Of a stretch of 64,000 nt of DNA, positions 30,509-44,064 are shown one piece after another. The notes beneath the pieces were generated by a model that was not told the origin of the DNA, did no database searches, and saw nothing but the letters and a program-made list of their open reading frames with translations. The stretch covers positions 1,297,033 to 1,361,032 of the forward strand of contig NZ_BLXY01000001.1 in the NCBI RefSeq assembly GCF_014193585.1, written 5' to 3'. Every line of letters starts with the position of its first letter. Position 1 is the first letter of the stretch. Source of the DNA: Geomonas paludis. Lineage in GTDB: Bacteria; Desulfobacterota; Desulfuromonadia; Geobacterales; Geobacteraceae. A program made the position numbers and the translations under genes.

Positions 30509-31483
30509 TTATAACCGCCATTCTTTCCGATGTTCCGACAGGTATTCCTGGGCCGGCCAGAGGTCATGGTCCTGGGGCGGGATCATGGCGCGGCCGTTGA
30601 GGGTTAGCAAAAAACCTGGGACATTAGGATCTGCCATGATCTGACGGGATGTAAGGACATTGTAGTTGGTGGAGACGCCCATCATCCCTTCGTCAAAAGC
30701 CCAGTGGCAAAGCTTGCAGAGGGCCATGCCGTTTCGGATGTCGTCGTTTTGGGTTTTGCGCCACGGGACGATGTGGGCGGCGTCTACTGCGGTGTGCTGC
30801 TCTGGGGTGATGATGCGAACCCCGCACAAGGCACAGCGGTGGTCGTAGGCTTTGATGACCATCCTTCGAAAAGCCTGGGCACGCGCGGCGGGACGGTAAA
30901 TCTCTGCCTCAACGATTTCCTTCACCAGCGGCAGGTGCGACTTTTCTTCAAGGATGCGGCTGTACTCGGAGGCTTCACGATTGATGGCCGACTGTTCGCG
31001 CAGTAGCAGTTGCGCCATCTCAGAAAAACACGACTGCAGTAAGGCTTCTCTCAAGGCCTCGCGGCCTGCTTCTGACTTCATAAGCAGGAAGAGGTCGTCA
31101 TCCAAGGTGGCTCCAAGGACGTGCTTCCTTAAATAGGTGACTGTGGCAGTATTGTTGATGACGGCATCGGAGAGTTGTTTACCCGGCTGAGGAACGAGGT
31201 GCCAGAACGGTTCCCTGTCCAGCCGCGAAAAGGGAAAGGCGATGCTGCTGGTCTGACCAAGAGGAATGATGCGTCGCCAGTAGAGACAGAAGAGTTCGTT
31301 CAACTCGAGGAGGTCGCTTGATGCATCTATGAACGGGGCGGTTATTACACCACGCTGCACCAGGTCCATGACAGCCAACAGGAGGAACGGCTTGTGGGGG
31401 GCCCTGCCTTTGGTCGAATCGGTCCAGACGGGACCGGGAGCGCGTTTAAGGGTGGTGAATTGCTTGATGTAATCTGCTGGCAT
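30509..31483 (-). CDS. HNH restriction endonuclease, probable phosphorothioate-DNA type (SBD-HNH)
   Basis: 324 residues. The N-terminus (RAPHKPFLLLAVMDLVQRGVI, and FPFSRLDREPFWHL) resembles the sulfur-binding domain of ScoMcrA-like type IV enzymes. The C-terminal HNH domain is complete: CALCGVRII, DAAHIVPW, then NGMALCKLCHWAFDEG with Cys and His ligands and the active His. Such enzymes cut DNA carrying phosphorothioate (and sometimes methyl) marks. No dnd or ssp modification genes are in view, consistent with a type IV role against modified invaders. The HNH call is firm; the recognised modification is inferred. Confidence 0.75.
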   Translation of the reverse strand: MPADYIKQFTTLKRAPGPVWTDSTKGRAPHKPFLLLAVMDLVQRGVITAPFIDASSDLLELNELFCLYWRRIIPLGQTSSIAFPFSRLDREPFWHLVPQPGKQLSDAVINNTATVTYLRKHVLGATLDDDLFLLMKSEAGREALREALLQSCFSEMAQLLLREQSAINREASEYSRILEEKSHLPLVKEIVEAEIYRPAARAQAFRRMVIKAYDHRCALCGVRIITPEQHTAVDAAHIVPWRKTQNDDIRNGMALCKLCHWAFDEGMMGVSTNYNVLTSRQIMADPNVPGFLLTLNGRAMIPPQDHDLWPAQEYLSEHRKEWRL

Positions 31484-31604
31484 CTCGCCCTCGTCAGGTC
31501 AGCTAGGCGGTAAGTTAGATGCAATTTAGATTAACGGAGGGAAAGAATCAAGCTTAATGATGGTGGGAGCGATGGCAGGCGAGGATGTGAGGGCATGGGA
31601 TGGT

Positions 31605-32084
31605 TTACCGTTTTCTCAGATGCATCGACTCAGCTGACAGCTTGCAGTCTGGTCTGCACTCGGCAGACTCCTGTATTGTTGCCTGTGTCCAATCTCCTTC
31701 ATCGATCCGAAGGCTGATAGTACACTTGCTGTTTTTGCTATTGACGTATTCCTGCACGGCAACAGCTACTCCGGCCTGGTTATCATCTGTCTCTGCTCCT
31801 AACCACCAGTAACCCGCGATCCTGGCTTTCCCGTGCTCATCTCGTCTGCAGGTCCCGGACTTTGCAATTTTGAAGTCGATTGTCTTGGAATCAATGTAGG
31901 TGACTTCCAGTGACTGCCGCTCGTTTCCTTTTACCAGCGTGAAACGCAAGGGTGACTGGGGAGGGTGCGGCGTGGCTCGTCGAGGCTCCTGCCGTTGCTC
32001 GTCACGCGACGGTAGCTCGGCTGCGGCGACTTTGGCTGCTGTCATGAGCACCACGATTACCCACGTGAGGGGCATGATCTTCAT
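31605..32084 (-). CDS. Secreted partner of second hydrolase (possible immunity protein)
   Basis: ATG 32084 (MKIMPLTWVIVVLMTAAK) has a GAGGTG site; GTG 32105, overlapping the upstream stop, is an alternative. ~159 residues with a signal peptide, then a Pro/Arg-rich linker and a domain RFTLVKGNERQSLEVTYIDS...GYWWLGAETDD. Four cysteines (TCRRD, KCTI, ECRPDC) suggest disulfides. Not similar to the partner at 13241, though it holds the same place after a TIGR02594 hydrolase. Periplasmic targeting and pairing suggest protection from, or delivery of, the hydrolase. Confidence 0.55.
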   Translation of the reverse strand: MKIMPLTWVIVVLMTAAKVAAAELPSRDEQRQEPRRATPHPPQSPLRFTLVKGNERQSLEVTYIDSKTIDFKIAKSGTCRRDEHGKARIAGYWWLGAETDDNQAGVAVAVQEYVNSKNSKCTISLRIDEGDWTQATIQESAECRPDCKLSAESMHLRKR

Positions 32085-32101
32085 TGCAGCACCTCGTATT
32101 C

Positions 32102-32581
32102 TCACTGGTGACTATTCTCGGGCCAGCGTAGCCCCAGCAAGGTCCAAGTCTTCTTCGGAAAGCTCGACTCCTTCACGGTATTGCTTTGATTTCCTCCGAG
32201 CAGTTTAAAGTGGGTGGCGGTCTCTTTGATGAGGAAGCCGACGTGGGCGCCGGAGGTTGAGAAGCTCCTGTCTGTCGCCTTGCTGCTGCAGATCACGGTG
32301 ATCGCCCCCGGGACAGGGCCTGACGGGATACCCCAATGGACCCAACTTTTTGCAGCAGCGGAGTCGGTGCCTTTGATGCCCGCCTGCTTCAGGCACCAGT
32401 TGACGAAGGAGGAACACCACGGCGTTTCGTCGTCGGTGGCCTTGAGCGTGGTCGTGGCGTGGTAGGCAAGGATGCGCGGGTTGTCTTCATGGCCGACGAT
32501 TTCCTTTTGCCCAACCTCTTGTCTAGCAATATCCAGCCAAGGGGCATGCTGCAGAGGAGATCTTTTGCTGTTGCTGGTCAT
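32102..32581 (-). CDS. TIGR02594-family amidase-like hydrolase (second copy)
   Basis: ATG 32581 (MTSNSKRSPLQ) follows GGAGGTG; 159 residues. The catalytic domain matches the 12534 gene closely: NPRILAYHATT, TPWCSSFVNWCLKQAG, AAKSWVHWG, HVGFLIKE and LLGGNQS. Unlike that paralogue it lacks a peptidoglycan-binding domain. No signal peptide. It sits in a three-gene minus-strand unit: zinc-ribbon miniprotein, hydrolase, secreted partner. Likely a cell-wall peptidase or amidase; toxin, phage-lysin or remodelling roles are all open. Confidence 0.8.
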   Translation of the reverse strand: MTSNSKRSPLQHAPWLDIARQEVGQKEIVGHEDNPRILAYHATTTLKATDDETPWCSSFVNWCLKQAGIKGTDSAAAKSWVHWGIPSGPVPGAITVICSSKATDRSFSTSGAHVGFLIKETATHFKLLGGNQSNTVKESSFPKKTWTLLGLRWPENSHQ

Positions 32582-32599
32582 GGTTAGCACCTCCGGGAC

Positions 32600-32767
32600 T
32601 TATTCCTCATCCTCCTGCAGACTGCAGTCCGGGCACTGTGGCTCTCCGTTATCATCCAACCCGTATGTCTTCCCTTCCGAAAACTTCCTGCCGCACCGGG
32701 CACAGGAGACCGGCTCGTCTTGGGTGGCATAGAAGAAAGCCAGCAGGTCTTCAAGCAAGTCACTCAT
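32600..32767 (-). CDS. Zinc-ribbon miniprotein
   Basis: A 55-residue frame starting at ATG 32767: MSDLLEDLLAFFYATQDEP, then CARC and CPDC pairs 23 residues apart and an acidic tail QEDEE. It ends 18 bp before the hydrolase start on the same strand, so it is probably co-transcribed. The two CxxC pairs indicate a zinc ribbon. No family is recognised. The first hydrolase module lacks this gene. Confidence 0.5.
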   Translation of the reverse strand: MSDLLEDLLAFFYATQDEPVSCARCGRKFSEGKTYGLDDNGEPQCPDCSLQEDEE

Positions 32768-32879
32768 GGGCTATCTCCGTTAGACGGTGTTCACGCTTGC
32801 TCGTTCTCGTGGAATGTTGCCACACCCCTTCGCATTAGCAACGGGGAAGAGTCTCACGATGAGAATTAAAAAAATATAA

Positions 32880-32907
32880 TTGACTTCGCGGTTGCGGACG
32901 CTATCCT
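32880..32907 (+). promoter_or_regulatory. Possible promoter for the FN3 gene
   Basis: TTGACT (32880-32885) and TATCCT (32902-32907) with a 16-bp spacer, 48 bp before the start. Preceded by an AT-rich run, as UP elements are. Confidence 0.3.
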
Positions 32908-32954
32908 CAACGGGAGCACGTTGAGAGAAATCCTTAGCCCAAGGAGGGATAAGC

Positions 32955-33632
32955 ATGTTCCCATCGGTGATTCCCGTAACAAACAATGTCTTCGTCATGA
33001 ACCACTTCGCGGATATGAACCACCATCAGCTGATAGGGTGGCTGCTGGATGCGGCGACAAAACAGGAGCAGCACCACTATCATGGAAAAAACACGCCCGA
33101 TTGGGTGGCTGGATTCACCCGTTTCCGGGAACATGCGGCTGCCCTGTCACAGAAGGAGGAGGCGGCAAAGAATAAGGACATTCAAGCCATCAAGGAGCGT
33201 GACCTCGAGCGTGCCGCCACCCTGGAGTCGATCCACTTCAACGCGAGCTACATCGTCATGAGGGTCCGGCACGAAAACGATGAAAGCCTGCTCCACAACG
33301 TTGGCCACGAACTGAAGGAAAAGACAAAGAGGACTCATGCGCCCACTTCTGTTACCAAGTTGCCGCTGAAGGTGACGGCGAAGAGAGGTGACGAACCGGG
33401 AACGATAGTGCTGACCATAGAAAGGGACCCGGGCGCCGGTGTGTACGAAGTCCAGTTCTGCAAAGGCACCCCGGTTGACGAGAAGTCATGGCAGCTGCTG
33501 GGTAACTTCAAAAAGGTAAGGATCTTCATCCCGGACCTGGAGCGGTCAGGCTGGTATTACTTCAGGGTTCGGAGCCACGGCGACAACGAAACGAGCCCCT
33601 GGAGCATGCCGGTCGACATCATCGTAGGTTGA
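32955..33632 (+). CDS. FN3-domain protein with unknown N-terminal helical domain
   Basis: AAGGAGGG precedes ATG 32955. 225 residues. The N-terminal ~125 residues are helical and rich in His, Gln and Lys (MNHHQLIGWLLDAATKQEQHH). Residues 135-225 are a fibronectin type III fold (LKVTAKRGDEPGTIVLTIE, then YEVQFCKG and GWYYFRVRSHGDNETSPWS). No signal peptide is seen. A strong terminator follows. The N-terminal domain is not recognised; ligand-binding or structural roles are possible. Confidence 0.65.
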   Translation: MFPSVIPVTNNVFVMNHFADMNHHQLIGWLLDAATKQEQHHYHGKNTPDWVAGFTRFREHAAALSQKEEAAKNKDIQAIKERDLERAATLESIHFNASYIVMRVRHENDESLLHNVGHELKEKTKRTHAPTSVTKLPLKVTAKRGDEPGTIVLTIERDPGAGVYEVQFCKGTPVDEKSWQLLGNFKKVRIFIPDLERSGWYYFRVRSHGDNETSPWSMPVDIIVG

Positions 33633-33651
33633 TGCACGAACATTTAGAAAC

Positions 33652-33700
33652 GAGGGCGGCATGGGACGCGATAGGTGTCCCCGCCGCCCTCATTTTGTTT
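33652..33700 (+). terminator. Rho-independent terminator
   Basis: GAGGGCGGC and GCCGCCCTC arms, with an inner GGGAC/GTCCC extension, followed by ATTTTGTTT. It ends the FN3 gene transcript. Confidence 0.85.
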
Positions 33701-33820
33701 GCCACTCCTCCATTGCAACGACCTTCTCTTCCTACCGCTCTATCCCTTACGCATAACCGCTAATCAGAGGCAGCCGTTACCGGCCTGCGCCCCCCCGTAG
33801 CAATGCCGTGACTACATTTA

Positions 33821-34275
33821 AAACTGCTGCCGAAGAATTCGAATCACGGGCGAGGAATTAAAACTGCCGGCGAGGAATTCGAATCGCTGGCGAGCGTTCA
33901 AAACTGGCGCCGAGGAATTTGAATCTCCAGCGAGCAGTTAAAACCAACGGCGAGGCACTCGAATCCCTGGCAAGAAATTAAATCCGCGGCGGAGCATTTG
34001 AATTGCTGGCGAGCAATTAAAAACGGGCGGCGGGGAATCCGAATTGCCGGCGACCAGTTAAAACTGCTGGCGGAGAATCTGAATTGCTGCCGAGGAATCA
34101 AAACCGACGGCGAGGAATTCGAGTCGCTGGCGAGGAATTAAAACTGGCGGCGGGGACTCCGAATGGTTGGGAAACAATTAAAACTGCCGGCGGAGTATTC
34201 GAATCTTAGGCGAGCAATTAAAATTCGAGGTCCAGAATTTGAATTGCTGGCGAGGAACTAAAACTGGGCGGGACT
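33821..34275. repeat. Tandem array with strict 20-bp period and alternating half-units
   Basis: About 23 consecutive 20-bp units that alternate between two types, consensus AAACTGCCGGCGAGGAATTC and GAATCGCTGGCGAGCAATTA. The true period is therefore 40 bp (about 11 units). Phase is kept over 450 bp; one base lost near 33980 is restored by 34020. Units vary at many positions but the central GGCGAG and the AATT edges persist. The array has no spacers and no coding frame, and lies between the FN3 gene and the QueG-like gene. Confidence 0.9.
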
Positions 34276-34364
34276 GAAAGGGTGTGCCGGTTCCCAAGGC
34301 TGGGAGACCGGCAACCATCCTGATGATATTGCGTCTTGTGTCGTATGGCGTGTGAATGCTTCCC

Positions 34365-35204
34365 CTAATTACAACCAGCAGGGTTGCGTGCTTCGCAGGG
34401 CACTCCTACCTGGCAAAGGGCGCAGCCGGCGGGTCCCTCCACACCACGTTCTTTAGCCAGACGGACTGAGTCGGGACCGTAGCCGAAGATCATGCAGCGG
34501 ACTTTGTCATGTCCTGCTGTTGAGACGGCTTGGGCGGGGCAGCGGCGGATGCAGGCGCCGCAGGCGCCGGTTTTGAAGTGGAGACAGTCGGCGCGATGGT
34601 GCTCGGCGGTGCGCTGGTCGGGGTCGAGCACGGCATCGATGACAACGGAATTGAGCACGATGGCCATCCCTTTGGCGCTGAGAAAGGCGCTGTTCAGACC
34701 GAAGGTGCCGAGCCCGGCGGCGTATGCTACGTGCCGGTCGGACCAGGGGGAGGTCTTGCCGTTGGGGGCGTCCATGATGCGGAACCACTCGGCATCGGCC
34801 GGGGCCACGCCGTGTACGCCGTGCCGCTCCATCTCCTGCAACAGCCCTCTCCGTACCTCTTTTTGCAGCACCTTGGCGCACAGGTCGTAGGCCTTGGTCC
34901 ACTCGACGGAGGGCTTATCGGTACAGCGACGGTTGCTGTCCCGTAACGCCTTGCTCCAGGGCATCACCCAACTGACGACGGTGCCGCCACGCCAGCTCCC
35001 CTCGCCGTGCGCGGCTTCGTAGGCCTCCCGTGGCGTTCTGTGCCAGGGACCTATGATCTGCTTGAACTCCTCGAAGATCGGGTCGTCACCGGCAGCGAAA
35101 TTAACCAGCGGTTCGTCGAAGTAGCGGTCCGCCAGTGAGTCGGACCAGTTCCCCTTGTGGTCGACGATGGACTGCGTGATCACTTCGCGTATCAGGTCCT
35201 TCAT
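34365..35204 (-). CDS. QueG-like Fe-S protein (epoxyqueuosine reductase relative)
   Basis: ATG 35204 with GGAGGTG eight bases upstream; 279 residues. The C-terminus carries two ferredoxin-type clusters: CGACIRRCPAQAV plus CALCQVGVPCEA, with an upstream Cys in DCLHFKTGAC. The middle part, HVAYAAGLGTFGLNSAFLSAKGMA, matches the cobamide-binding core of QueG and reductive-dehalogenase-like proteins. It is shorter than true QueG and lacks its C-terminal HEAT part, so the substrate is probably not epoxyqueuosine. A MarR regulator upstream shares its operator, suggesting a role in a xenobiotic or redox response. Confidence 0.75.
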   Translation of the reverse strand: MKDLIREVITQSIVDHKGNWSDSLADRYFDEPLVNFAAGDDPIFEEFKQIIGPWHRTPREAYEAAHGEGSWRGGTVVSWVMPWSKALRDSNRRCTDKPSVEWTKAYDLCAKVLQKEVRRGLLQEMERHGVHGVAPADAEWFRIMDAPNGKTSPWSDRHVAYAAGLGTFGLNSAFLSAKGMAIVLNSVVIDAVLDPDQRTAEHHRADCLHFKTGACGACIRRCPAQAVSTAGHDKVRCMIFGYGPDSVRLAKERGVEGPAGCALCQVGVPCEARNPAGCN

Positions 35205-35267
35205 GTTCACCTCCATTTAACGCGCTGAAAAACAGACGTTGGTGCATCGGCAAAGTTCAGGCTTGTT

Positions 35268-35284
35268 ATGTTGTATATGCAACT
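35268..35284. promoter_or_regulatory. MarR-type operator upstream of QueG-like gene
   Basis: ATGTTGTATATGCAACT, a palindrome centred 72 bp upstream of the QueG-like start. It is the same element as at 35946-35963. Confidence 0.75.
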
Positions 35285-35316
35285 TTGCGGACAAAAAAAA
35301 TACCGATTGGCGACGG

Positions 35317-35424
35317 AGGGGACTGACTCCGAAGGTGCCTGTCCCCTTCAGCTTCTGGACGTTGGCTGGGCTGAAAGGGGCGTTCCGCTAAAGGGACAGG
35401 CACCTGACGGAGCCAGTCCCTTCT
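35317..35424. repeat. Inverted pair of REP-like hairpins
   Basis: A reverse copy at 35317-35347 (GACTCCGAAGGTGCCTGTCC) and a direct copy at 35373-35424 (AAAGGGACAGGCACC then GGAGCCAGTCCC) surround GCTGGGCTGAAAGGGGCG. Same family as 21873-21982. Confidence 0.8.
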
Positions 35425-35500
35425 GATTGTTGTAGGTCCTTCCGCCTAACCAAAGCAAATCCCGCTAAATCCCGCTTTGACCAGGGGCACTTTAAAAAAA

Positions 35501-35947
35501 TTAGCAGCTTACTCTGAGACGGTCGGCGATGGCTTTGAGGGAGGAGGCGCCTTCCTCGCCTAACAGGGCCAATGCGCGCTGCTGGGCTTCCTGCCACTGT
35601 TCGTGGCAATCCACCATGAGCTGCCTGCCGCTTTCGGTGACTCGAACGATCTGTCCCGGCCCTTTCCCTGAGACCTGGATCCAGCCGCTCTTTGCCATGC
35701 GGTCGACGGTGCGGCTCACGGTGGACTTTTCCATCTGCAGGCGCGCGCCGATCTCACCGGGACTCGCGTCCCCGACAGTCAGCAGGCACACGAGGATGCT
35801 GGCCTGGTTGATCTTGATGCCGTACGGCTGCAGCGCCCGGTCGTACAGGCCGGTGATGACGCGGTTCAAGCGCCTGGCCCGGCCGGCGATGCACTGGGCG
35901 GCAACCAGCTCGGCAATCTCGTTTGCGGACTTACCTGGAGTGTTCAT
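35501..35947 (-). CDS. MarR-family transcriptional regulator
   Basis: 148 residues. A winged helix is clear: INQASILVCLLTVGDASPGE, then RLQMEKSTVSRTVDRMAKSG (recognition helix) and QIVRVTESGRQLM (wing). Start ATG 35947 directly overlaps a palindrome and lacks a ribosome site, so the mRNA may be leaderless. The same palindrome precedes the QueG-like gene downstream. MarR proteins usually repress and are released by small aromatic ligands or oxidation. Confidence 0.87.
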   Translation of the reverse strand: MNTPGKSANEIAELVAAQCIAGRARRLNRVITGLYDRALQPYGIKINQASILVCLLTVGDASPGEIGARLQMEKSTVSRTVDRMAKSGWIQVSGKGPGQIVRVTESGRQLMVDCHEQWQEAQQRALALLGEEGASSLKAIADRLRVSC

Positions 35948-35963
35948 GTTGCATATACAACAT
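35946..35963. promoter_or_regulatory. MarR-type operator overlapping its own start codon
   Basis: ATGTTGCATATACAACAT, a near-perfect palindrome spanning the marR start (35945-35947). Bound repressor would block both transcription and a leaderless start. Confidence 0.75.
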
Positions 35964-36034
35964 CATCACTGCCAGATTGTCAACGAATTTCCTGCATTCA
36001 ATAACAATCATCTTAAACGGGGGGGCAGGTGCGA

Positions 36035-36068
36035 AAGTGCCGGTTTCCGAACTGGGAAACCGGCACTT
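36035..36068 (-). terminator. Strong hairpin, probable end of the protease transcript
   Basis: AAGTGCCGGTTTCC pairs with GGAAACCGGCACTT around a 6-base loop. It lies 44 bp beyond the stop of the minus-strand protease gene. The T-run is weak, so termination is likely but not certain. Confidence 0.55.
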
Positions 36069-36111
36069 GTCGTCGTGATAAATCTTGTGTGGGGCGGGCC
36101 TGAGCCTTCCG

Positions 36112-38388
36112 CTACTGCGTCTTGAAGTAGTAGGTCTGCGACGTGACGGTGCTGCTCCCGGCGCTGGAGGAGACCTGGAAGTAGTAGATGGTCCTCCGGG
36201 CGAGGGAGGATAACGTCAGCACGTGCGAGGTGACCAGCGTGCTGCTGGACAGCGACTTGGTCAGACTGCCGGACGAAGTGCCGTAGCGGATCACGGAACT
36301 GGAGGCCAGGTTGGTGCTCCACTGGATCTTGGCGGACGTCGTACCGATGGTGCCGTACACGCCGCTGCTAAAGGCGAGCGGCGCGGTTGGGGTGGCGTAG
36401 GCCTCGTTGGAGAGCGCGGACCTGCCGGCGCTGTTCACGGCGGCGACCTTGTAATAGTAGGTGGCGCCGTTGGCGACGCTGTCGGTGAAGGAGGTGGCGG
36501 TGATGCCGGTCCTGACCGGGGTAGTCCCCTCCCGCCCGGCGGCGGTGCCGCGGTACACGTTGTAGCTGGTGGCGCCGCTGCTTGCGGTCCAGCTGAGGGC
36601 CACAGTGGCGTTACCGGCCGAAGCCTTCAGCCCGGCCGGAGCGGCGGGCGCGGTGACGGTGGGCGTGGTCGAGGTCGAGGTGGTTGAGGAGGATGCGGGC
36701 GCCAGTGCCGCCAAGAGGTTGGCGCCGTTGAAGGAACCCCAGCCGGTGGCGTTGTCGTAGCCGGTGATGGCGGGGTAATAAAGATTGGTGGTGCTGTCGG
36801 CGACGTCGTGGAAGGTGGTGCCGTAGCCGGTGCCGGTGCCTACCTGGTACAGCACCGGGTTGGCAAAGCCAAGCGGCGCCAGGCCACCGGCGGCGCGCTG
36901 CTGGTTCACCCTGGCGGTGAAGGCGGCCCACAAGGGAGCGGCGCAGCTGGTGCCGCCGTAGATCCACCACTTGCCCTGGAAGTAGATGGAGTAGCCGGTG
37001 CCGGGGTCGGAGTTGAGAGCGACGTCAGGGACGTTCCTCATCACGGAGGAGGCGACGTTGCCCAGCTGCTGCTGCCAGGTGGGGATGGGCCAGAAGGCGC
37101 TAACGCCGCCCCCCCCGGCGCCGCCGTTGATGGTGCCGGCGTTCCAGGTGGACTCGCGGTTGTAGCTGCCGCTGCTCAGGTAAAGGGTGGTCCCGCCGAC
37201 GCCGGTGACGTAGGGCTGGGAGGCGGGGTCGTCCACGCTGAGGGTGTTGCCGTTGTCGTAGGCGCCGCTGTCGCCGGCGGCGGCGTAGACGGTCTGCCCT
37301 TGGGCGGCCATCTGCCGAAAGATGGCGTTCTCGCTGTTCAGGAAGGAGGAACCGCTCTCACCTTCGCTGAGCCCCCAGGAACTGCTGATCTGCTTGGCGA
37401 TGTTGTCGGTGGCGATCCGGTTGTAGGTGTCCAGGACCCCTTTGCTGGTGTTGGGGCCCATGTAGACCATTATCTTGCTGGCGCCGGGTGCAAGCGCCAT
37501 CTGCAACTCGATGTCAAGCGTGACCTCGCCGGCGCCGGACCCGGGCGCGCCGGAGAAGCTGTCCACCAGCACGTTTTGCAGCGGCACGGCACGCAGCCCG
37601 TAGTAGCTGGCGTACGTGGCGATGTCGGAAGGTGTATAGCCGTCCAGTTGGAATAGGGCCAGAGTTTGGCCGGCGCCGTTAGCGCTGACCGAACCGAGGT
37701 TGTAGGCGGTGGTGATATCTTTCGGGGTCATGCCACCGCCGGGGCCGGTGCCGATCTGGTAAGGCGTGGCCATGGGGGCGTCCGTGGCGCGGGCGGCATG
37801 GCTGTGGGTGTGCCAGGCGGCGGAGCTGTCCAGGCCGACCATGCCGGAGATGCAGGAGGCGATCGCGTTGGGGACGCCGGGTTCGCGGTCGGGGGCAAAG
37901 AAGCTGTGGCCGCTGTGGGCCTGGAACTGGTGCATCTGCACGTCGAAGGCCGCCTCGACGACGGCGGCGGGGCCGGCGACGTCGAGGACGGTGCGGTTGG
38001 CGTGGGTGCCGGTGATGGTTAGGCCCAGCCCGCGGGCGTAGCGCTTGACCGCCTCGTAATCGGCGACGGAGGGGGCGAAGCGCTCGATGAACTGGGGAAC
38101 GGTGAGGTAGTGGCCGTAGAGCGGGTCGGCCGGGTCGTAGATGCGCCGCAGCAGGTCGTCCAGCGCCTGCTGGTTGCGCAAGGGCAGGGTGAAGGAGAAC
38201 CTCATCTGCGCCACCGCGGGTAGTCTGCCCAGCCGTCTGGCGCTGGCCATGCTGCGCGCCGGGACGTGTCCCGCGAGGCGGACCCGTGCCGAGCTGTCGG
38301 CCCAGCATGATGGCGGGGCTCCCGCCGCCATGGCGACGGCAACAAGGAGTCCGAGGCAAAGGGGGAACTGTTTCAACGCGACTTTCAA
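36112..38388 (-). CDS. S53 family (sedolisin/kumamolisin-like) secreted protease with FN3 domains
   Basis: 758 residues. Signal peptide (LCLGLLVAVAMAAGAPPSCWA), activation prodomain (residues ~60-200) and S53 catalytic domain. The triad is visible: E288 and D292 in GEVTLDIELQMA, oxyanion D373 in AAGDSGAY, and S481 in YGGTSCAAP. A C-terminal Ca-site region (FHDVADSTT, GYDNATGWG) follows. Two FN3 domains end the protein (SWTASSGATSYNVYR; IQWSTNLASSSVIRYG). Sedolisins are usually acid-active endopeptidases, secreted and self-processed. A second, unrelated secreted protease is at the right edge of the window. Confidence 0.92.
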   Translation of the reverse strand: MKVALKQFPLCLGLLVAVAMAAGAPPSCWADSSARVRLAGHVPARSMASARRLGRLPAVAQMRFSFTLPLRNQQALDDLLRRIYDPADPLYGHYLTVPQFIERFAPSVADYEAVKRYARGLGLTITGTHANRTVLDVAGPAAVVEAAFDVQMHQFQAHSGHSFFAPDREPGVPNAIASCISGMVGLDSSAAWHTHSHAARATDAPMATPYQIGTGPGGGMTPKDITTAYNLGSVSANGAGQTLALFQLDGYTPSDIATYASYYGLRAVPLQNVLVDSFSGAPGSGAGEVTLDIELQMALAPGASKIMVYMGPNTSKGVLDTYNRIATDNIAKQISSSWGLSEGESGSSFLNSENAIFRQMAAQGQTVYAAAGDSGAYDNGNTLSVDDPASQPYVTGVGGTTLYLSSGSYNRESTWNAGTINGGAGGGGVSAFWPIPTWQQQLGNVASSVMRNVPDVALNSDPGTGYSIYFQGKWWIYGGTSCAAPLWAAFTARVNQQRAAGGLAPLGFANPVLYQVGTGTGYGTTFHDVADSTTNLYYPAITGYDNATGWGSFNGANLLAALAPASSSTTSTSTTPTVTAPAAPAGLKASAGNATVALSWTASSGATSYNVYRGTAAGREGTTPVRTGITATSFTDSVANGATYYYKVAAVNSAGRSALSNEAYATPTAPLAFSSGVYGTIGTTSAKIQWSTNLASSSVIRYGTSSGSLTKSLSSSTLVTSHVLTLSSLARRTIYYFQVSSSAGSSTVTSQTYYFKTQ

Positions 38389-38546
38389 GACGTGCCTCCG
38401 AGCAAGGGGTGGAAAAGGGGAGTTTGTGCGGCTGGATTCACCATCGGCAGCGTTGCTCGGAACTTTAATGCTTCGGCAAAGAAAAACATTGTGGCGGGCG
38501 AAGTTAGCGGAACCTTTGTTCCCTTTATCCCCGATTGAATGTTTAG

Positions 38547-38793
38547 CAGTTCTTTGCGGCTTTGCGGCTTTGCGTTAAGAAAGCCTTGAGTTTTCAACCA
38601 AAAGGCGTAGAGGCGGAAAGGCTTATTTCTTAACGCAATGGCGCAAAGACGCTAAGCAACAAAAGACTATTGGGTTACCCCCATAATCTTTGTGTCTTGC
38701 TCCTTTACGTTACAAAAAGTGTGGGGGCGGTGGCTGAGCCGAAAGGGGCGTTCCGCTAAAGGGACAGGCACCTAACGGAGCCAGTCCCTTCTG
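38547..38793. repeat. Intergenic repeats (CGCAAAG family and one REP-like hairpin)
   Basis: GCGGCTTTGCGTTAAGA (38563-38582) and inverted TTAACGCAATGGCGCAAAGA (38631-38650) belong to a family seen many times to the right. A REP-like copy with its AAAGGGGCGTTCCGCTA flank fills 38741-38793. No gene is seen between 38400 and 39129 otherwise. Confidence 0.75.
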
Positions 38794-40549: not shown

Positions 40550-41280
40550 AGCTTTAACGCAAAGGCGCAGAGACGCGGAGACGCTAAGAGAACCAAGAAC
40601 AATAGGGTTACCCAACTTATAATCTTTGCGCCTTTGCGGCTTTGCGTTAAGACAGGCTTGAGGTTTAAACCCAAAGGCACAGAGACGAAAGGCCTGATTT
40701 TAACGCAATAACGCAGAGACGCTAAGAGAAACAAAAGGCATTAGTGGTTTTATCCCTTTTATCCCCGTTATCCCTGTTTGAATGTTTTTAGCACTTCTTT
40801 GCGCCTTTGCGGCTTTGCGTTAAGACAGGCTTGAGGTTTAAACCCAAAGGCAGAGGCGAAAGGCCTGATTTTAACGCAATGACGCAAAGACGCTAAGAGA
40901 AACAAAAGGCATTAGGTTGCCCATAATCTTTGGGTCTTGAGCCTTTACGTTACAAAAACATGTTTTTGACTTATCCTTTTTATCCCCTTATCCTTGTTTG
41001 AATGTTTTTAGCACTTCTTTGCGCCTTTGCCGCTTTGCGTTAAGACAGGCTTGAGGTTTAAACCCAAAGGCACAGAGGCGAAAGGCCTGATTTTAACGCA
41101 ATGACGCAAAGACGCTAAGAGAAACAAAAGGCATTAGGTTGCCCATAATCTTTGGGTCTTGAGCCTTTACGTTACAAAAACATGCTTTTGACTTATCCCT
41201 TTTATCCCCTTTATCCCTGTTTGAATGTTTTTAGCAGTGTTTGCGCCTTCGCGCCTTGGCGGCTTTGCGTCAATAGAATA
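40550..41280. repeat. Direct array of long intergenic repeats
   Basis: Composite units containing GCGCCTTTGCGGCTTTGCGT, then TTTTAACGCAATGACGCA and a TTTATCCC/TTATCCCTGTTTGAATG block recur at about 40625, 40798, 41018 and 41230 (spacings 173 and 220 bp for the first three). Units within 40790-41170 are almost identical, so the array probably grew by recent duplication. No gene is seen. Confidence 0.85.
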
Positions 41281-43167: not shown

Positions 43168-44064
43168 ATGAAGCGCAATCTGTTGTTTTGTCTCTCAGTG
43201 CTGGTGTGCTTCGCCCTGTCGGGGTGTGTTACGAGCGGTACCTATCAGAAGAAGGAGCTCGAGGCCCAGAACCTGGAGAAGAGCCTCCAGGAGCAGCGGG
43301 GACAGTACAACATCCTCTTGGGCGAGAACGACCAGCTCAAAAACGACATCAAGAGGCTGACCACGGAACTGGCCGCCATGACTGGCGAGAAGAACGCACT
43401 CATGGCGGACAAGAAGGGGCTGGAGGAGACGCTGAAGTCGACCTCGGACGCCAAGAACCAGAAGATCGGCGAGCTGAGCCAGAAGGTGGGGGACCTCAAC
43501 GTGAAGGTGGGAGACCTGACCCAGAAGTCGGCGGACCTGGAGGCGGAGAACAAGCGGCTCAAGGACGAGGTGGCCCGCCTGCAAAAGCAGAAGGAGGAAG
43601 TCCAGAAGACCAGCAAGACCTACGGCGACCTGCTGGAACAGATGAAGGGGGAGATCGCCAAGGGGCAGGTGACCATCTCGGAGCTGAAGGGGAAGCTCAC
43701 CGTGAACATGGTGGACTCGGTGCTCTTCGATTCCGGCAAGGCCGAGGTGAAGCCTGAAGGCCTGGTGGTGCTGCAGAAGGTGGTGGACATCCTGAAGACC
43801 GTGAAGGACAAGGCGGTTCGCATCGAGGGGCACACCGACAACGTGCAGATCGTCGGGCAGCTGGCCAAGCGCTACCCCACCAATTGGGAGCTTTCGGCGG
43901 CGCGCGCCATCAACGTGACCCGCTACCTGCAGCAGCAGGGACTCGACCCGGCGCTCTTGGGTGCGGTCGCCTACGGCGAGTTCAAGCCGGTGGCGCCCAA
44001 CGACACCGACGAGGGGCGGGCCAAGAACCGCAGGATCGAGATCGTACTGGTGGCAAAGGAATAA
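43168..44064 (+). CDS. OmpA-family lipoprotein with coiled-coil stalk
   Basis: AAGGAGGAAG precedes the ATG; 298 residues. The lipobox LSGC puts the mature Cys at residue 20. Residues 30-170 form a long heptad coiled coil (QKKELEAQNLEKSLQEQRGQ). The C-terminal OmpA/MotB domain has VNMVDSVLFDSGKAEVKPEG, IEGHTDNVQI and the peptidoglycan-binding GRAKNRRIEIVL. The protein probably links outer membrane to cell wall. Confidence 0.9.
   Translation: MKRNLLFCLSVLVCFALSGCVTSGTYQKKELEAQNLEKSLQEQRGQYNILLGENDQLKNDIKRLTTELAAMTGEKNALMADKKGLEETLKSTSDAKNQKIGELSQKVGDLNVKVGDLTQKSADLEAENKRLKDEVARLQKQKEEVQKTSKTYGDLLEQMKGEIAKGQVTISELKGKLTVNMVDSVLFDSGKAEVKPEGLVVLQKVVDILKTVKDKAVRIEGHTDNVQIVGQLAKRYPTNWELSAARAINVTRYLQQQGLDPALLGAVAYGEFKPVAPNDTDEGRAKNRRIEIVLVAKE

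Follow-up and report, generated by a model that had tools for sequence, protein, structure and literature searches.

What kind of element keeps a step of 20 bp, close to two turns of the helix, over nearly 450 bp of intergenic DNA while its letters drift, and does it stand alone? The question is raised by an array in the window, by which is meant the whole 64,000-nucleotide stretch of Geomonas paludis analysed here. A sequence-only reading had described the array as unlike any familiar type of repeat element; what that reading missed is that the array is linked to a family of genes, one member of which lies ~190 bp upstream. The features concerned are these:

32955 to 33632, plus strand: family gene for a 225-aa protein whose N-terminal part, roughly residues 11-127, is predicted to be helical and whose C-terminal domain is Fn3 (ORF, structure model, family profile against PDB, Foldseek)

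33652 to 33691, plus strand: terminator-like inverted repeat, then ATTTTGTTTG, lying after the gene and before the array (from a hairpin search and folding; a stricter scan, with loops of 3-8, gave no terminator)

33820 to 34266, no strand assigned: tandem array of 22 units of 20 bp, of two alternating half-unit types (TRF, autocorrelation, segmentation)

33980 to 34020, no strand assigned: cancelling -1/+1 phase slip (segmentation and alignment to the array of Geomonas anaerohicana)

The array occupies 447 bp, and its 20-bp periodicity with alternating half-units, giving a true period of 40 bp, was borne out by all three methods at coordinates within about 10 bp of those first proposed. TRF calls it twice, at 33818-34266 with a period of 40 (score 334) and at 33814-34267 with a period of 120 (score 407), and autocorrelation over the 447 bp is 0.52 at lag 20, 0.66 at 40, 0.50 at 60, 0.64 at 80 and 0.65 at 120. 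Lags that are multiples of 40 give 0.64-0.74 and odd multiples of 20 give 0.49-0.57, with 0.22 between peaks, and the peaks themselves do not decay as far out as lag 380. The half-unit consensuses are AAAACTGGCGGCGAGGAATT and CGAATCGCTGGCGAGCAATT. Units adjoin directly, as had been claimed in saying that there are no spacers, and every step between them is 20 bp except one of 19 and, two steps on, one of 21, so that the one-base loss noticed near 33980 is indeed made good within ~40 bp. The longest listed open frame (at least 60 aa) within the array is a 67-aa reverse frame and 20 is not a multiple of three, in keeping with the claim of no coding frame, and a Pfam scan of seven window neighbours found no cas genes among them. 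By blastn there is no second copy in the same genome, the 12 other matches all having E values of at least 0.3. Repetition of other sorts is present elsewhere in the window: a 222-bp tandem duplication at 40750-41249 (2.3 copies, 95% matches) and, at 43168-44064, coding 21-bp periodicity in what is by inspection a lipoprotein-like coiled-coil protein, an illustration that a 21-bp period alone can be coding.

No Pfam family matches the protein encoded upstream. The Fn3 assignment of its C-terminal half comes from the family profile against PDB and from Foldseek. With a cut-off of E 1, Pfam fn3 is found in 14 of 26 family members, the lowest E value being 8.4e-6, but not in the window protein. 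In the structure model the N-terminal half is helical, at a mean pLDDT of 69.6 that is fair only, with four close sequences to draw on; neither the PDB profile search nor Foldseek gave a DNA-binding match for this domain, the matches listed being of Fn3 type only. PHROGs gave no match and NCBIfam nothing near cut-off (two proteins each), and PADLOC-DB defence protein models gave no family for the 26 members. The pI is 7.25 for the whole protein and 6.87 for its N-terminal part, against a family median of 8.8. Translated members run from 202 to 395 aa as open frames, mostly 210-245, and there are shorter ones without the Fn3 part. At E 1e-8 the family is present in 22 of 48 Geobacteraceae genomes, with 8-18 paralogs in each of all 19 Geomonas genomes and 22, 4 and 2 in single genomes of three other genera. 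Clustered at 45% identity it falls into 40 clusters, 28 of them with an array. Over 247 genomes sampled from the phylum, profile A2 matched the genome of the window only; profile A3, over 395 genomes, matched it and three others, the latter only over the Fn3 part in frames of 413 to 1296 residues. Single paralogs, used as queries in place of the window protein, gave no sign of mobile or viral origin among plasmids, phages and viral contigs, the one plasmid match (E 0.8, a Hydrogenimonas plasmid) having no array in its flanks. A possible resemblance to short Fn3 proteins of other phyla is given no weight here.

How general is the pairing of gene and array? After removal of repeats of the same protein core and of loci with less than 1 kb of 3' flank, 177 raw family rows became 95 distinct loci, and these were searched with lags of 12 to 60 allowed. 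At a score of 0.5, a 3' array of two-turn period (lag 19-22 or 39-44) is present at 62 of the 95, nine more have one 5' only, and 24 have none on either side; at 0.55 the counts are 52 and eight. For comparison, random 1.3-kb stretches, taken in two genomes (2 Mb in all) and clear of the family genes recognised in the tiles, have such arrays in 22 of 1274 cases at 0.5, a slightly high figure since the stretches of L109 and L202 were kept, and in 10 of 1274 at 0.55. Among gaps of at least 300 bp without a family gene the count is 6 of 208, which is slightly low because the L109 and L202 gaps, with a family gene just outside the tile, were left out by hand and one array between draT and draG, described below, is missing from it. 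The lags themselves set the family apart: all 63 arrays (any lag from 12 to 60) in its 3' flanks at 0.5 are best at lag 20, 21, 40, 41, 42 or 60, whereas those of control arrays are widely spread and mostly multiples of three. Members without Fn3 are no exception, 21/42-bp periodicity at 0.51 or more being found at seven of their eight loci.

A second census started from the arrays. In 1.59 Mb of another species, G003, amounting to a third of the genome, there are 26 periodic stretches scoring at least 0.55, among them nine of two-turn period at 0.75 or above, a cut chosen after the rows were seen. Seven of these nine are beside a family gene, five at 18-138 bp, a sixth 1.6 kb off with a transposase frame between, and a seventh adjoining an Fn3-less family ORF absent from the genome search list. 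The remaining two, one between draT-like and draG-like genes (by inspection) and one with a period of 43 bp, have no family gene. The link between gene and array is strong and not exclusive.

Several individual loci merit description. At L202:18604-19203 (G003) a family array has apparently been separated from its gene by a transposase gene. A 21-bp array lies between convergent draT-like and draG-like genes, so named by inspection, both in the genome of the window (L145:16902-17438) and in G003 (L192:3768-4432), in the same place in the two species, with different units and no family gene. Also without a family gene, and between convergent genes, is the 43-bp (2 x 21.5) array at L115:4258-5165 of G003.

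Comparison of orthologous loci bears directly on whether it is spacing or sequence that is kept. With the window array as query, blastn over 58 genomes gave matches in six including its own, all of one genus; Geomonas anaerohicana (G002) and G. propionica are among the close relatives, and the match in G013 is a single one of 35 bp. The loci L019, L015, L016 and L018, found through the array, and L026, found through the gene, all adjoin an ortholog of the window gene. Had the spacing been incidental, units at random distances might have been expected here, an outcome the sequence-only reading had named as telling against it; instead a period of 20 or 40 is kept in all six genomes with a close ortholog (at least 65% identity, the window genome included) while the units drift. 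The array of G. anaerohicana (L019/L021) has no slip, and between it and that of the window are 128 substitutions and four short gaps that form two cancelling pairs; 180 bp of 5' flank differ by 40 substitutions and by four gaps, which fail to cancel one another, the numbers being small. In G004 homogenisation has left a single 20-bp unit throughout the array, which gives 0.97 at lag 20. In the arrays of G010 and G011 only about half of the unit bases are common and phase is kept, L018 having one slip and L026 none. The best conserved positions, ATT-NN-AAY, recur in both of these drifted arrays as in that of the window, an agreement that segmentation started from the window consensus may favour.

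Some neighbouring observations belong here. In the window two reverse-strand genes (34365-35947; 283 aa and a MarR-type regulator) stand between the array and a sedolisin-like gene, unlike G. anaerohicana, where the sedolisin-like gene comes directly after it (L019). The latter species has a second 40-bp array of the window type, 3' of a gene that is RelA/SpoT-like by inspection, with no family gene nearby (L160:6023-6618). The lone 35-bp stretch of G013 (L017:1501-1535) is 89% identical to window units and may be a remnant or chance; the best relative of the window protein in that genome is only 48% identical.

Among more distant paralogs the arrays have no common unit sequence; what is common is a step close to two turns, of 20-21 bp where units are uniform and of 40-43 bp where half-units alternate. 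The 67 loci with arrays by a criterion that tried lags of 40-43 only show unit identity declining together with that of the proteins: it is 0.81 where the proteins are more than 80% identical, then 0.61 and 0.52, and finally 0.44 where they are less than 45% identical, as against 0.42 for shuffled units. Pairs of the same period number, in order of falling protein identity, 18 of 19, 76 of 98, 14 of 37, 117 of 345 and 301 of 852, the random expectation being 0.36. Mapped onto the protein tree, the exact period proves stable: it needs 11 changes, where 200 shuffles have a mean of 29.4 and a minimum of 23. Among orthologs, similarity in unit and period could be plain descent. Of what was first suggested about the array, the part that is supported is that the spacing looks maintained. 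In its favour are the period kept by orthologs and the stability of the period on the tree. The count of slips is less clear: dropping arrays with fewer than five units leaves 64 of the 67, and the 48 diverged ones (504 units, ~5500 mismatches) have 64 slips, where simulation gives ~94 if indels are 3% of substitutions and ~190 if they are 10%, so that a shortage of slips stands out clearly only with a neutral indel ratio close to 10% and is modest at 3%.

Might the arrays be idle? Some property of the locus, such as a protein acting on nearby DNA or low constraint past a terminator, could repeatedly amplify a two-turn unit and leave a satellite as its by-product. Units do turn over fast and some arrays consist of near-perfect copies (0.97-1.0), as such amplification would have it; the 24 array-less loci fit too, several being seemingly decayed, since among the 28 that are array-less by the 40-43 criterion 11 still score best at a two-turn lag, as do 163 of 1211 controls. 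However, phase is kept where only half of the unit bases are common, as in the slip-free L026, slips are fewer than simulated, and a neutral process explains neither the tie to one family nor the single class of spacing. By-product origin is a serious rival, if on balance an unlikely one.

The other serious rival concerns topology, on which the anatomy of the loci bears. Arrays have a median length of 348 bp and lie at a median of 166 bp from the stop codon. The next gene is convergent toward the array in 39 of 51 loci; among background gene-ends that have a long 3' gap the figure is 44 of 101. This count rests on a home-made gene finder and related loci, with no next gene called in nine of 60. 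A general factor, such as gyrase or a nucleoid protein, might bind the arrays and so buffer supercoils between convergent genes, a role already proposed for BIME elements, the family gene being a mere frequent neighbour; two arrays without a family gene, L145 and L115, are also between convergent genes, and a passage of PMC1525189 has REP/BIME elements binding gyrase and IHF and sitting in just such places. Against this, the units have no palindromes, the bias toward one family (62 of 95 against 6 of 208) is left unexplained, as is a period that follows the protein tree, and the orientation count has the qualifications just given. We think it improbable.

That the arrays are transcribed, into structured or sponge-like RNA, is considerably harder to credit. 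On either strand the window array does fold better than its dinucleotide shuffles, with z-scores of -3.4 and -4.0, though such shuffles destroy repeats; Rfam gave no match at E 1 or better for window positions 31000-38600, no promoter-like site is listed within the array, the units of paralogs are unrelated, and 30 of 60 loci, as against 4.8 in shuffles, have a terminator-like hairpin after the gene and ahead of the array. As for the remnant of a repetitive coding gene, another outcome that the sequence-only reading had held would count against it, arrays of 21 and 42 bp could be translated as repeats of 7 or 14 residues and a coding 21-bp heptad is present in the window, but periods of 20, 40 and 41, which are not multiples of three, are found at 38 of the 67 loci (40-43 criterion), the window locus and its close orthologs included, and we give the notion almost no credence.

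Bending of the DNA, initially put forward as one consequence of the regular spacing, found no support. In a wedge model with wedge values from general background the window array is less curved than its shuffles (0.75 versus 0.94), and a curved-DNA element was rejected; over 13 arrays the outcome is mixed, with only L026, L046 and L192 clearly above shuffles on the maximum. Nor did 56 unit consensuses yield a common dyad or motif, the mean best dyad being 5.02 of 7 versus 4.77 in shuffles, with L088 alone beating all 200 of its own.

The reading that we tentatively prefer, while putting it at somewhat under an even chance, is that the window array makes up the cis DNA side of a gene-array pair that recurs, with the helical domain of the protein binding its own array cooperatively. 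The array, its association with the family, the shared spacing and the stability of period on the protein tree are observations. Most family members have a tandem array next to them, as a rule on the 3' side of the gene and in most cases opposite a convergent gene, and the convergent neighbours and terminator-like hairpins also speak for this reading. In the simplest scheme the helical domain, as the part common to all members, would bind cooperatively and advance by one step for every two turns, meeting the same face of the helix at each unit, to give a regular nucleoprotein filament or solenoid, and Fn3 might be the contact for a partner. The sequence of the unit would then be free to drift while its paralog follows. 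The weakest part is that the complex may serve as a locus-specific chromosome anchor or insulator, by analogy with ParR on parC repeats. Points that count against binding are a near-neutral window protein, a helical domain with no match to a known DNA-binding fold, the 24 loci of 95 that are array-less and the arrays that have no gene.

Extension from one locus to the genus is more tentative again: many of the 8-18 Geomonas paralogs would have a private array with protein-specific two-turn spacing, forming a nucleoprotein filament, and would together make a new class of chromosomal protein-array pairs. Were this so, one genome would have many independent centromere-like or anchor-like sites, with a code that consists of spacing plus a fast-evolving unit. 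Intergenic tandem repeats of bacteria are often viewed as junk or as typing markers, and here is a class of them tied to one family. If the proteins do read their arrays, nature has provided a replicated experiment on the co-evolution of protein paralogs and DNA repeats, and perhaps also a level of organisation, hitherto undescribed, in the chromosomes of metal-reducing soil bacteria.

Where, then, does the pairing stand among known systems? We found no prior report of it in the literature searched, which comprised articles without their supplements. In a part of the G. bemidjiensis genome paper (PMC2996986) intergenic direct repeats of 6 to 42 nucleotides are described, which may include this class of array, and that part names no linked gene family or helical spacing. 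Bacterial VNTRs and minisatellites are likewise tandem arrays with internal homogenisation; here a period near two turns extends across unrelated units and is tied to one protein family. CRISPR arrays differ in having unique spacers between units. BIME/REP elements resemble the window array in being intergenic, often between convergent genes, and in alternating unit types, and differ from it in that here there are no palindromes, the unit has one copy in its own genome and there is the tie to a gene family. Fn3-domain proteins are alike in the C-terminal domain and differ in the helical N-terminal one, and some members without Fn3 still have arrays. The closest likeness is to ParR-parC of ParMRC, exemplified by the 20-bp repeats of pSK41 ParR, where a small adaptor gene also adjoins its own direct-repeat array and where, according to a section of PMC9426499, repeats vary in sequence and spacing between families. 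The present case is chromosomal, with many paralogs per genome and ~22 units in the window array; no ParM gene is among the few window neighbours scanned with Pfam, and in place of a ribbon-helix-helix, for which there is no match, there is a helical part plus Fn3. Since membership in ParMRC fails on the fold of the protein, the likeness would be one of working and not of kinship. Every known class tested failed in a defining feature; should binding be demonstrated, some may prefer to see the pairing as a variety of protein-bound direct repeats.
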